DNA of 64,000 bases from assembly GCA_030627235.1 (NCBI GenBank), contig DAOUSL010000001.1:1-64000 (forward strand). Reading direction: 5' to 3'. The notes below the pieces were generated by a model. The model did no database searches and was not told the origin of the DNA. It saw only the letters and a list, made by a program, of their open reading frames with translations. The DNA is from Thioploca sp. (lineage in GTDB: Bacteria > Pseudomonadota > Gammaproteobacteria > Beggiatoales > Beggiatoaceae). Position numbers and translations under genes: made by a program. Shown in pieces: positions 14,360 through 37,290 of the stretch. The stretch's first letter is position 1. Each line of letters starts with the position of its first letter.

Positions 14360-14671
14360 TTACTTAATTTTTGCTTCTTTGGAATCAGTTTCACCCTTAT
14401 TATCTTTCCAAGTAATTTTTAAAGTATCTCCTTTAGAAGCTCCTTTAATTTTAAAAGACCAATAAGGATTTTTAGAAACAGCACCGCTCCAAATTGCAGA
14501 CACTACTACTTTGTCGCCATAAGTACATTCTATTTCTTTGATAAAATGTGCTGGTACTAATGCTCCAGTCTCTAAATCTTTACGTATCCCATTTTCCATA
14601 GGATGTTTGATTAAAGCTTTAACCTCAGTAATACCATCTTTTTCTTTGGCTTTAATACGTATTGATGCCAT
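14360..14671 (-). CDS. soxZ: Thiosulfate oxidation carrier complex protein SoxZ
   Basis: 103 residues, the normal SoxZ length. It shows family features ASIRIKAKEKDGITEVKALIKHPM, GALVPAHFI and the C-terminal GDTLKITWKDNKGE immunoglobulin-like fold. SoxZ dimerises with SoxY in the periplasm and holds its sulfur-carrying arm during thiosulfate or sulfide oxidation. It has no export signal and is expected to travel with SoxY through Tat. It has a strong AGGAGG ribosome binding site and lies 16 bases after soxY. No soxA, soxX, soxB or soxCD is seen in the window. Confidence 0.96.
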   Translation of the reverse strand: MASIRIKAKEKDGITEVKALIKHPMENGIRKDLETGALVPAHFIKEIECTYGDKVVVSAIWSGAVSKNPYWSFKIKGASKGDTLKITWKDNKGETDSKEAKIK

Positions 14672-14687: not shown

Positions 14688-15149
14688 TTAACCTGCACAA
14701 CCGCCTTTTGCAACTGTGACTGATTTACGGGTACTATATAAATTACCATCTTTAGTTTTTACTACCACTATTACATCAGATTTTTTAGCCATTTTAATCC
14801 GAGTTTTTAACCAAGCAACTGAATTTTCAGTAAAGTTAAATTGGCTTACCAATGGTACAGGATTATTTTCTACGATGATGGCAATTGACTCAACCTGTTC
14901 CAAAGAAGTTGATACTTCAACTGGAACTACAGCACCATTTTCAGCAGTTTCAGGTACGTCAAGAGTAATTTGCTTGCTATCTTGAACATCTTTTCCTGAA
15001 AATAAAGCCATTAAAGCTTCATCAGTAGTTTTAGCTTGAAATGCTACATCAGGCCAATCTGCCATTGAAGGTAGTACTGCTGTTCCAAGCACTAATGCTC
15101 CACCAGTAGCTAAAATATTTTTTAAAAAGTTCCTACGTGGGGTATTCAT
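14688..15149 (-). CDS. soxY: Thiosulfate oxidation carrier protein SoxY
   Basis: About 153 residues from ATG 15149, which has AGGAGG upstream. The longer track ORF to 15296 runs into the neighbouring DUF928 gene and is rejected. A twin-arginine signal (PRRNFLKN, then a hydrophobic segment) directs Tat export, and cleavage is likely after an A-x-A-like site near residue 30. The C-terminal GGCAG carries the single cysteine to which sulfur intermediates are attached; the family form is GGCGG or GGCAG. With SoxZ this forms the carrier for periplasmic thiosulfate oxidation. It is the strongest indicator of sulfur metabolism in the window. Confidence 0.95.
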   Translation of the reverse strand: MNTPRRNFLKNILATGGALVLGTAVLPSMADWPDVAFQAKTTDEALMALFSGKDVQDSKQITLDVPETAENGAVVPVEVSTSLEQVESIAIIVENNPVPLVSQFNFTENSVAWLKTRIKMAKKSDVIVVVKTKDGNLYSTRKSVTVAKGGCAG

Positions 15150-15267: not shown

Positions 15268-16350
15268 TCAATTAGAAATAAGTTGTACTGTATCATAATT
15301 AGCCACTTTAGACATTTTAACTTCCTGATTTAAAGTGGCACGTATGGCACGTAATTCCGTGTTATACGGATGTGCTTCAATTTGGCTACAAATATTTTCT
15401 ATTGCATCATACCATATTCCAGCTTTTGCGTAAGTTTTATACCACTGTTCTTGTGGTGTTTGCTGTAAATTAGCAGTTAAACTTGCTGATGCTGGTATAT
15501 ATTGAATAGTTCCACTGCTTAATAAATCACCAGAACGTTGTTTTGGATCAGGAACAATTACTACAAACCATTCATATTCAGTATCAGGTTTAAGAGATAC
15601 ATCATAATCAGCTAAATTTAATCTATTCATACCAGCTTTATGAATTCCAACTTCAGGCAGACCAATAAATAGTTCTAAAATTGGTTCAACTGCTCCAACT
15701 TCATTCAAAGAAAATTCAATTATACCATCCCAATCATCAGACATATACCAGTAAAAATTTGGTTGGGATACGGTGGTTAAACCGGTATGTTGCGGAGCAA
15801 GTGGAGCTATCAGCTTTGGAAATGATAATGGTTGTTGGATTATTTCTTCTTTTACTACTATTTCATCCTTAAGTTCACTACCACCCCTAAGTCCACGAAC
15901 ACCCCTAAGTCCACGAACACCTCTAAGTCCACGAAGACCTCTAAGTCCACGAACACCCCTGACTCCACGAACGCCTCTGATTCCACGAACGCCTCTGACT
16001 CCACGAACGCCTCTGACTCCACGAACACCTCTGACTCCACGAACGCCTCTGACTCCACGAACGCCTCTGACTCCACGAACGCCTCTGACTCCACGAACGC
16101 CCCTGACTCCACGAACTCCTCTGACTCCACGAACGCCCCTGACTCCACGAACTCCTCTGACTCCACGAGATACGTTTCCGTTTTCTCCATTTACAAAACC
16201 TGATTCCCTTCTACGCAATGGAGCATCTGGTATAAGTTGTTTATATAACTTAGTTTCTTTATTATCAGTAGAAATATCATTAGCTATTGCTATATTACTG
16301 AAAGAAAAAACAATAATAAAACTACTCAAAAATATTCTTAACATATTCAT
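15268..16350 (-). CDS. DUF928-type secreted protein with long Arg-Gly-Val repeat
   Basis: A signal peptide (MNMLRIFLSSFIIVFSFSNIAIAN) suits the ATG at 16350 (AAGAG upstream) better than the longer track start at 16425. After a short mature segment comes an insert of about 32 RGX triplets, mostly RGV with a few RGL and one RGI, then a domain resembling DUF928: LIAPLAPQHTGLTTVSQPNF, then Y.EWFVVIVPDP. DUF928 occurs mainly in cyanobacteria and sulfur bacteria and has no known function. The insert is very basic with glycine every third residue, as in collagen-like sequences, but without proline. It is upstream of soxYZ on the same strand with a 118-base gap, so co-transcription is possible. Confidence 0.8.
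   Translation of the reverse strand: MNMLRIFLSSFIIVFSFSNIAIANDISTDNKETKLYKQLIPDAPLRRRESGFVNGENGNVSRGVRGVRGVRGVRGVRGVRGVRGVRGVRGVRGVRGVRGVRGVRGVRGVRGVRGVRGVRGVRGIRGVRGVRGVRGLRGLRGLRGVRGLRGVRGLRGGSELKDEIVVKEEIIQQPLSFPKLIAPLAPQHTGLTTVSQPNFYWYMSDDWDGIIEFSLNEVGAVEPILELFIGLPEVGIHKAGMNRLNLADYDVSLKPDTEYEWFVVIVPDPKQRSGDLLSSGTIQYIPASASLTANLQQTPQEQWYKTYAKAGIWYDAIENICSQIEAHPYNTELRAIRATLNQEVKMSKVANYDTVQLISN
15883..16169 (-). repeat. 18-bp coding minisatellite, about 16 units
   Basis: The plus strand shows tandem units such as GAACGCCTCTGACTCCAC, about 287 bases in total, with scattered single-base variants (acccct, acctct, aagtcc). On the minus strand each unit encodes two RGV triplets. The 18-base period keeps the reading frame, so unit gain or loss only changes protein length. 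The repeat leaves other frames open too, which explains three shadow ORFs on the track. Confidence 0.95.
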
Positions 16351-16509: not shown

Positions 16510-17172
16510 ATGAAATCACATTGTTGGATATGGAATGTTAGTAAAATAAATAAAAAATACTTTATAGAGCAGCTTAAGACAAATCAAATGATCGGACAAG
16601 AGTGTGGTTATAATAAAAGAATAAACTTACATTATCTTAATGCTAAAAGTAAAAAAAATTTGATTAATGAAGAATGGTATATATGGGATAGTTGTAAAAT
16701 GATGTTGATTGATATTAAAAAAAATGATTTAATTATTATAAAAAACATTCCAAATTATGATCATTTTACCATAGTCAGGGTAATAGGAGAATATAGATTT
16801 AACTTTGCTCCAAAAAAAGGCAATTTAAGTCATTTTTTACCAATTGAAACCTTAGGTGAGTTTTATAAATATTCAAAAATTGTTCCTTCATCATTATTAA
16901 GGGTTTTAAATAGAGAAATACATCCAATTCATATGACTCGTAATTATCAATGTGACACTGTTAAAAATTTAGTTTTACAGGTTAATAAAAATCCTAAAAT
17001 AACTAAAAAATCAGCTAATTTCATCGTTCAACTATGGCAATGGGAAGTAGAACATTTAGGATTTATAGGAGCTATTTTCTTATTTATTATTGCTTTTTTT
17101 CAAGTTGCATCGTCTATAGAAGGTGCAGTAGTGGATTTTGATAGATTCATTAATATTATTAGATTTTGGTAA
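16510..17172 (+). CDS. Unknown membrane-anchored protein, paralog 1 of a tandem pair
   Basis: 220 residues, not recognised. The N-terminal half begins CWIWNV and includes DLIIIKNIPNYDHFTIVRVIGEYRF, HFLPIETLGEFYKYS and IVPSSLLR. The pattern of short beta strands, with a ligand-like loop and an I-x-GEY strand, is faintly reminiscent of PUA/EVE-like modules or the N-terminal domains of Mrr-type enzymes, but this is only an impression. A hydrophobic segment (about 184-203) followed by a short charged tail anchors the C-terminus. The same layout is repeated in the next gene three bases downstream, so the pair arose by tandem duplication and is probably co-transcribed. Confidence 0.65.
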   Translation: MKSHCWIWNVSKINKKYFIEQLKTNQMIGQECGYNKRINLHYLNAKSKKNLINEEWYIWDSCKMMLIDIKKNDLIIIKNIPNYDHFTIVRVIGEYRFNFAPKKGNLSHFLPIETLGEFYKYSKIVPSSLLRVLNREIHPIHMTRNYQCDTVKNLVLQVNKNPKITKKSANFIVQLWQWEVEHLGFIGAIFLFIIAFFQVASSIEGAVVDFDRFINIIRFW

Positions 17173-17175
17173 TAT

Positions 17176-17868
17176 ATGTTTAAAAAATCTCCCAATTGGT
17201 TTTGGAGTTATAAGCCACAGTGCTGGTTTTGGAATGTTGAAGAAGTAAATCAAGATTGTTTTATAGAACAATTAAAATATCATAATAAATTAAGCCAAGG
17301 TTGGGGATACCATAAAAAATTAAACTTAAAAATCCTTAAAGATAAAGAATATCTAAATTCAGAGGAAAAACAAGTCTGGCATTCTTGCAAGTCAATGCTC
17401 TGTGATATTAAGGAAGATGATTTAGTCGTGGTAAAAAATATTCCTGATTCTAACCATTTTACTTTAGTAAAAATTATTGGGGAATATGATTTTGATTCTG
17501 AAGATAATGATTTAGGACATTTTTTACCAATTGAAATTTTAGGGGAATTTTATAAATATTCTAGTATTGTGCCAGCATCATTACTACGTTCTATACACCA
17601 AGATCATAACCTGATTAATATAGCAAGTAACACTCAACGAAATATTATTGCTAGTTTATCTTCACAAATATTAAACGGTTATGAACCATCAAATGTTGTT
17701 ATTGAATTGTGGCAGCGAATGGAAGAATATCTTGGTAGAGTTGGAGCAGTTGTAGTATTTTTATTTACTATTATTGAAATAATATCAGCTGTTGAGGGAA
17801 CTGTGGTGGATTACTCGGAATTTAAAGAAATTTTAAAACAATGGTATTGGAGTTTAAGGCAATTATAA
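17176..17868 (+). CDS. Unknown membrane-anchored protein, paralog 2 of a tandem pair
   Basis: 230 residues and clearly homologous to the preceding gene. It shares CW.WNV, FIEQL, DIK.DDLVVVKNIP, HFTLVKIIGEYDF, GHFLPIEILGEFYKYS.IVPASLLR and an E..LG..GA hydrophobic segment near 195-215, followed by the shared (I/V)EG.VVD tail. It begins three bases after the first gene stops. The central loop (GEYDFDSEDNDLGH) differs in length and charge from the partner, where binding specificity might lie. No function is assigned. It is convergent with mgtE, with only six bases between the stops. Confidence 0.65.
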   Translation: MFKKSPNWFWSYKPQCWFWNVEEVNQDCFIEQLKYHNKLSQGWGYHKKLNLKILKDKEYLNSEEKQVWHSCKSMLCDIKEDDLVVVKNIPDSNHFTLVKIIGEYDFDSEDNDLGHFLPIEILGEFYKYSSIVPASLLRSIHQDHNLINIASNTQRNIIASLSSQILNGYEPSNVVIELWQRMEEYLGRVGAVVVFLFTIIEIISAVEGTVVDYSEFKEILKQWYWSLRQL

Positions 17869-35538: not shown

Positions 35539-37290
35539 ATGAAAACCGCAACTATAAAATACTTAGCTCATGCTATAAAAGAGGGGAAATCCAAGCCAAT
35601 TTTCTTTTTGGGAGCTGGAGCTTCAAAGACTGGCCAAATTCCATTGGCAAATGAGATCGTTAAAGATATATTGACTAAATATCCAGATCATCCACTTAAA
35701 GATTCTGATGAAACTATTAAAGATTTGAAGGATAAAACTTATACCAATTTGATGGATTGTTTAAGTCCAGAAACTCGTAATAAATTGCTTAAAGGTTATA
35801 TTGATAAGGCAAAAATTAATGTAACCCATATTTATCTAGCTCAGTTGATGGTTAATAATTATGTTGATTATGTATTAACGGTCAATTTCGATAATTTAAT
35901 GTTGCGAGCTTTGGCATTGTATAATGAGTTTCCACCTATTTATGATATGGCGATTTTGAAAGATTTAACTACCACTGCTCCGCCATTAAAATCTGTGATT
36001 TATTTGCATGGTCAACATCATGGGGAATGGCTGTTAAATACTAAAGAGGAAATGGCTAAGGTGAAAGATACTATTTCGTCGATGTTGAATAGTATAAAGG
36101 ATCGTAGTTGGGTATTTATTGGTTATAGTGGTGAAGACCCTATTCTTGAGCATATTAAAAAAATGGGTAGATTTAATAAACAATTGTATTGGGTGGCTTA
36201 TAAAGATGAAGAACCTTCTGCTAAGGTGTGTGATGCTTTGTTTAATAAGAGTAATACCGAAGCTTATCTGATTAAGGGTGACGATGCAGATTCGTTTATG
36301 CTGAGGTTAAATTCAGAGTTGAATTTGCCGCAACCGCAAATACTGGAAAATCCTTTTTATGCTTTAGGTAAAGAGTTGGATAGTATAGTTGATATTGAAG
36401 ATAAAGAGCCGTATAAGGGAGTAAAGCAACGGTTAGATAATGCAAAGGCTAAAGTTAAAGAAGCAGTTCAGCAATTTGAAAAAACCGAAGTGGAGATAGA
36501 GAAGAAAAAGATTATTGATTTTATAATAGCAAAGAATTATCAAGCAGATGAAATCAGCGAAATAGCAGCTAAAGTAAAGTCATTAAATAATCCTGAACTT
36601 GATGATTCATTAGCTAATTTATATTTTAATTGGGGAATTTACTTAGGAAATTTAGCAACTAATGAAGCCGAATCTTTATATAAGCAAGCCATTGAAAAAT
36701 TCCAATGGGCTATTGCTATTAAACCAGATTTACACGAAGCCTTTTACAACTGTGGAATTGCTTTAGAAAAATTAGCAGCGACCAAATCCGGAGCTGAACC
36801 TTTATATAAGCAAGCATTTGAAAAATACCAACAGGCTATTGATATTAAACCAGATAAACACGAAGCCTTTTACAACTGGGGAACTTGTTTAGGAAAATTA
36901 GCAGATAGCAAATCTGGAACTGAGGCTGAATCTTTATATAATCAAGCGTTTGAAAAATACCAACAGGCGATTACTATTAAACCAGATGACCATAAAGTCT
37001 TTAACAACTGGGGAACTTATTTAGGAAAATTAGCAGATAGCAAATCTGGAAGTGAGGCTAAATCACTATATAACCAAGCTTTAGAGAAAACTAAAAAGGC
37101 AGTTGAATTAGGTGGAAGTTGTTATAATCTTGCGTGTTCTTATGTTTTAACCTCGGACAAGGAAAACGCCCTATTTTACCTAAAACAAAGCCTAGAAAAT
37201 GGAGACTATGAAGCAGAATTCGTCCAAAAAGATGAAGACTGGAAAAATTACTTAGAAGATGAAGATTTTAAAAGAATTATAAACAACTAA
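35539..37290 (+). CDS. SIR2-like domain protein with C-terminal TPR repeats
   Basis: 583 residues. The N-terminal SIR2_2-type NAD-binding fold has FFLGAGAS (22-29), TVNFDNL (114-120), YLHGQHHG (155-162) and FIGYSGEDP (193-201). The asparagine and histidine expected for NAD hydrolysis appear kept. A coiled linker (about 285-340) is followed by four long TPR-like units (about 355-530, 40-44 residues each) and a final partner-like helix pair. SIR2-family NADases are effectors in several anti-phage systems (Thoeris ThsA, DSR, SIR2-pAgo), so an immune role is plausible here but inferred. The gene stands alone with a convergent neighbour and follows a small possible ORF. Confidence 0.85.
   Translation: MKTATIKYLAHAIKEGKSKPIFFLGAGASKTGQIPLANEIVKDILTKYPDHPLKDSDETIKDLKDKTYTNLMDCLSPETRNKLLKGYIDKAKINVTHIYLAQLMVNNYVDYVLTVNFDNLMLRALALYNEFPPIYDMAILKDLTTTAPPLKSVIYLHGQHHGEWLLNTKEEMAKVKDTISSMLNSIKDRSWVFIGYSGEDPILEHIKKMGRFNKQLYWVAYKDEEPSAKVCDALFNKSNTEAYLIKGDDADSFMLRLNSELNLPQPQILENPFYALGKELDSIVDIEDKEPYKGVKQRLDNAKAKVKEAVQQFEKTEVEIEKKKIIDFIIAKNYQADEISEIAAKVKSLNNPELDDSLANLYFNWGIYLGNLATNEAESLYKQAIEKFQWAIAIKPDLHEAFYNCGIALEKLAATKSGAEPLYKQAFEKYQQAIDIKPDKHEAFYNWGTCLGKLADSKSGTEAESLYNQAFEKYQQAITIKPDDHKVFNNWGTYLGKLADSKSGSEAKSLYNQALEKTKKAVELGGSCYNLACSYVLTSDKENALFYLKQSLENGDYEAEFVQKDEDWKNYLEDEDFKRIINN
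36628..37110 (+). repeat. Four in-frame tandem repeats of about 120-130 bp (TPR units)
   Basis: Near-identical blocks encode AFYNWGTCLGKLADSKSG-like units followed by SLYNQAFEKYQQAI and IKPD. Units 3 and 4 are the most alike (KLADSKSG with GTEAES or GSEAKS), which implies recent duplication. The nine-residue insert within each TPR makes the unit longer than the canonical 34 residues. Confidence 0.85.

Follow-up and report, generated by a model that had tools for sequence, protein, structure and literature searches.

Length-variable Arg-Gly arrays under selection in DUF928 proteins of Thioploca and its relatives

The DUF928 gene and its triplet array

The window, which is the whole stretch of 64,000 nucleotides analyzed here (Thioploca sp., GenBank assembly GCA_030627235.1, contig DAOUSL010000001.1, positions 1 to 64,000), encodes a DUF928 protein with a long array of Arg-Gly triplets beside two sox genes:

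15268..16350, reverse strand: DUF928 gene with the Arg-Gly triplet array, 360 amino acids (open reading frame; PF06051 match)
16282..16350, reverse strand: probable Sec signal peptide, residues 1-23 (MNMLRIFLSSFIIVFSFSNIAIA), read from the sequence
16198..16227, reverse strand: conserved DAPLRRRESG motif, residues 42-51, N-terminal to the array (comparison of N-terminal regions)
15880..16167, reverse strand: 32 RG-x triplets, residues 62-157, an 18-bp minisatellite (Tandem Repeats Finder; codon listing)
15298..15816, reverse strand: DUF928 domain, residues 179-351 (PF06051)
14688..15149, reverse strand: soxY (PF13501), 118 bp downstream of the DUF928 gene and on the same strand
14360..14671, reverse strand: soxZ (PF08770), on the same strand as the DUF928 gene

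The PF06051 match scores 103.6 bits (E 1.4e-29) against a Pfam gathering cut-off of 26, and the array lies in frame between the signal peptide and the domain. A preliminary description of this DNA had placed about 32 triplets, built on an 18-bp minisatellite, in a DUF928 protein adjacent to soxYZ; the gene coordinates, the count, the period and the three Pfam assignments all agree with it. Its label of RGV holds for 25 of the triplets, the others being five RGL, one RGI, and a final RGG. Tandem Repeats Finder reports 15.4 copies with 92% matches (score, 421), making this one of the two strongest tandem arrays in the window, and synonymous codon usage differs between the two halves of each 18-bp unit. 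All six frames are open across the array because the repeat has no stop codons, and this is not evidence for other genes. The RG dipeptides, spaced three residues apart in a low-complexity context, resemble those of RGG/RG domains. The protein had also been called exported and its repeat stretch basic, which fits a probable signal peptide and a mostly basic array; by a simple heuristic, nearly all full-length array-bearing relatives have a signal-peptide-like start. The part C-terminal to the array is acidic (pI about 4.5).

Within the host genome, the RG-triplet pattern is limited to DUF928 genes, and reversed control patterns in the same search gave no match. The proposed check for other RGV-repeat proteins did turn up a second gene, on contig C449, yet it carries a short RGM array and is itself a DUF928 gene. 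In the named genomes, four pattern matches fell in odd frames or unrelated short open reading frames rather than in DUF928, and RG patterns at G028:C339, G028:C389, and G003:C77 corresponded to no convincing genes.

A single-sequence AlphaFold model for the structure of the domain reached a pLDDT of 33 and was discarded. Profile search against solved structures gave only a weak match, to a designed TPR over the C-terminal part (E 0.52), and defence-system models gave no match. Two further features of the window are recorded here. Divergent from the DUF928 gene lies a related protein pair (16510-17172 and 17176-17868, forward strand) that is kept beside DUF928 in the genus; the first protein has no Pfam match and the pair no NCBIfam match. 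At 36663-37079, a 132-bp tandem repeat (3.2 copies, 84% matches) has a consensus that looks TPR-like.

Relatives, unit turnover, and selection on the peptide

DUF928 was detected in 30 of 43 genomes of the host's bacterial family (86 matches) and is far less frequent in the rest of the class, with 10 of 274 sampled genomes, two of those ten belonging to the host's family. We compared the N-terminal regions of 85 distinct DUF928 domains and observe an array of at least 12 amino acids in 23 of the 30 DUF928-bearing genomes, at the same position in orthologs from many genera. In the tree, a tandem array is present in all rows with a readable linker within one clade of 30 rows (support, 100/99); one row (L073) is cut short at a contig end, and its linker is not readable. 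By subclade, the units are VSRG, VARG, LSRG, ISRG, RGV, GGFDTR, RFAFKANRG, and RAGLVAFKRKVG, RGV being confined within this clade to the window genus. Triplets (RGM, RGL, or RGV) are also found in a nine-row clade elsewhere in the tree (support, 100/91) and therefore have at least two origins. A small open reading frame with tandem KAKALYSNY-like repeats (L060:1431-1793, reverse strand) was seen beside one DUF928 gene.

An Arg-Gly motif and a signal peptide before the folded domain are traits that the window protein shares with the DUF928 family at large, including its cyanobacterial members. Where the window protein has 32 units, members sampled outside the host's family and on cyanobacterial plasmids have a single motif at the array position, for example RGAPTTRVGGGTR or RSAAGSRGGAASRG. 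In addition, DAPLRRRESG seemingly matches the GAPxRRxGGGTRG of short DUF928 proteins. From these comparisons, the array is best read as an expansion of the single Arg-Gly motif that precedes the DUF928 domain in Gammaproteobacteria and cyanobacteria, and not as a foreign insert; "expanded" is therefore a better word than "inserted", as the triplets had been called.

Copy number differs among close relatives. Three species of the window genus, with DUF928 domains up to 80% identical to that of the window, have 32, 31, and 21 triplets in frame on differing DNA unit architectures, in line with the length variation without frameshift that had been anticipated; in a fourth member (L142), about 11 triplets are seen where the contig ends, and the array may be cut there. 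The DNA units are recently homogenized, with lag-18 or lag-36 identity of 0.92 to 0.93. If the DNA repeat were merely slipping, changes between copies would be mostly nonsynonymous. Counting each codon type once per column across 28 arrays, we instead find 210 synonymous and 34 nonsynonymous types (expected, 79 and 165), with 14 of the 34 coming from one array (L065) in which the counted stretch entered a decayed tail. The binomial p of about 1e-67 overstates independence, since codon types were treated as independent although the species are related; the synonymous excess holds irrespective of that value, in 27 of the 28 arrays. A raw codon count gives 904 versus 52 (synonymous expected, 308), in arrays that were delimited by pattern and are thus biased towards conformity. 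In one ortholog (L072), neighboring VSRG copies encode their serine by TCA and by AGT, codons that cannot be interconverted in one synonymous step; the peptide repeat therefore probably predates the 24-bp DNA unit seen today. The array peptide is under purifying selection, whereas its DNA copies are gained, lost, and homogenized and the unit type has turned over between genera.

Some arrays lie at contig ends or contain Ns (L028, L046, and L083), and short-read assembly errors are accordingly possible; arrays within contigs of 1.2 and 1.5 Mb (G036 and G002) argue that the feature is real.

The position beside soxYZ had suggested a link to the sulfur machinery. SoxZ is present in 37 of the 43 family genomes and adjoins DUF928 in only three of them (G000, G010, and G011), all of the window genus. 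With the adjacency limited to one genus and linkage to sox genes not conserved, a sulfur link is not supported.

A candidate envelope linker and competing readings

Our leading, though tentative, reading is that the array forms a selected, length-variable, probably disordered, mostly cationic and multivalent Arg/Gly linker in an exported DUF928 protein. Disorder is probable on the basis of composition, and chains of the Arg/Gly type behave as sticker-and-spacer polymers. After export, the linker would act as a multivalent, mostly cationic sticker: its arginines may bind acidic surface polymers (lipopolysaccharide, sheath, or exopolysaccharide) or other acidic DUF928 domains, glycine and small hydrophobic residues would keep the chain flexible, and copy number would tune reach and binding strength. 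The DUF928 domain is the folded part, and many genomes have it in loci that also encode exported CHAT proteases and two-partner-secretion (TPS) proteins. Most unit types carry a net charge of +0.25 to +0.33 per residue, and DUF928 domains are a little more acidic in the array clade than outside it (median, -6 versus -3; p 0.001, uncorrected for kinship); the length of an array shows no correlation with the charge of the domain. The GGFDTR unit has no net charge, which shows that charge alone is not the conserved property. The commoner thread among the units is Arg and Gly with a hydrophobic or aromatic residue. The dense Arg-Gly repeats and probably disordered chain liken the arrays to RGG/RG domains, and some DUF928 units add aromatics (GGFDTR and RGRFAFKAN). 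However, RGG/RG domains are intracellular and bind RNA, whereas the window protein has a signal peptide, and nucleic acid binding by its array is unlikely because of export.

The neighborhoods of DUF928 genes bring up another, rather unlikely, explanation, in which secreted caspase-like proteases (CHAT or C14) cut or dock at the RG dipeptides and a tandem series of such sites lets the DUF928 domain be freed in graded or repeated steps. A CHAT or TPR-CHAT-type gene is the neighbor of at least 17 DUF928 loci, against an expectation of about 2 given 560 CHAT matches in 190 Mb; these loci comprise nine with CHAT in the fetched flank (1.6 expected), six by coordinates, and two where the TPR part alone was fetched. 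Among the nine flank CHATs, seven have the HG...SxC dyad and several a signal-peptide-like start. Two kinds of neighbor recur across genera: TPR-CHAT genes sit directly downstream of DUF928 in six array-clade genomes, and genes for TPS-domain proteins lie near it in five genomes. CHAT matches occur in all 43 family genomes, with up to 42 per genome. Between DUF928 and a TPS protein, we also observe a gene with repeats such as GGDPNACPPEDPNCA (L111:4739-7738, forward strand, without a Pfam match, and L115:1189-4005, reverse strand). Cyanobacterial members likewise have CHASE2, CHAT, or TPS genes nearby: they adjoin CHASE2 proteins, with an additional CHAT domain in one of these, and a TPS protein is also present at one locus. 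Another DUF928 gene of the host genome, on contig C267, adjoins the TPR part of a CHAT-type gene, but no CHAT or TPS gene was found among the neighbors examined at the window locus.

Literature on these enzymes cuts both ways. Substrates of CHAT proteases are commonly encoded near the protease (PMC9729208), and cleavage after Arg or Lys is reported for C14 members that are not caspases (PMC5756287); the best-studied TPR-CHAT, in contrast, cuts after Leu and is missing the residue with which separase reads Arg at P1 (PMC9729208). Craspase-Csx30 (TPR-CHAT) similarly pairs a CHAT protease gene with an adjacent gene for a possible substrate, although DUF928-linked CHATs have the look of exported proteins, CRISPR genes were not seen adjacent to them, and cleavage here is putative. 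Apart from DUF928, a single convincing gene with an (x)SRG array was found, which encodes an exported WD40-C14 caspase in genome G001 (L131:2444-5551, reverse strand), with two RGISRGISRGISRGISR blocks (RGIS arrays) just before the protease domain; the array occurs in that one genome, and the inspected homologs have none. Moreover, one DUF928 unit, RANSxAFKRKVG, lacks the RG dipeptide altogether. The stronger proposal, that the Arg-Gly arrays of exported DUF928 proteins serve secreted caspase-like proteases (CHAT or C14) as multisite substrates and make a proteolytic switch at the surface, with copy number setting its gain, appears more doubtful still.

It is similarly unlikely that the array is a mere flexible spacer from the membrane or cell wall, for which any soluble low-complexity sequence would suffice. 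Turnover among units of 3, 4, 6, 9, 12, and 19 residues would be at home in such a spacer, but the retention of Arg and Gly in nearly every unit type and the strongly synonymous codon variation indicate that not any sequence will do. A neutral or selfish minisatellite tolerated in frame would account for the recent homogenization and copy number change and is nevertheless highly improbable, given the codon ratio (210:34 against 79:165), the VSRG conserved across two serine codon families, and a repeat that tracks DUF928 and not other genes. Least probable of all is a collagen-like triple helix: the window genus does have Gly at every third residue, as in the bacterial collagen-like proteins Scl and Lcl, and the Pfam collagen model scores 62.6 bits against a cut-off of 27.2, but the array lacks proline and an acidic partner residue, scores fall far below the curated cut-offs of the NCBIfam collagen adhesin models, and orthologs break the triplet with units of 4, 6, 9, and 12 residues, namely (VSRG)n, (GGFDTR)n, (RFAFKANRG)n, or (RAGLVAFKRKVG)n, so the G-x-y spacing of the preliminary description is not conserved.

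Significance for the DUF928 family

The protein belongs to the known DUF928 family. The initial remark that no function had been described for this arrangement stands, as we found no description of Arg-Gly arrays in the DUF928 family in the open-access literature. Here, selection maintains across many genera the Arg-Gly character of a repeat whose unit is replaced again and again, in length as well as in sequence, and such selection on the peptide amid changing copy number and unit suggests a working surface or periplasmic linker and not a DNA accident. DUF928 is a domain family with almost no literature, the one paper found on it naming it only in passing, and the arrays offer a way into it and into the abundant secreted CHAT proteases.
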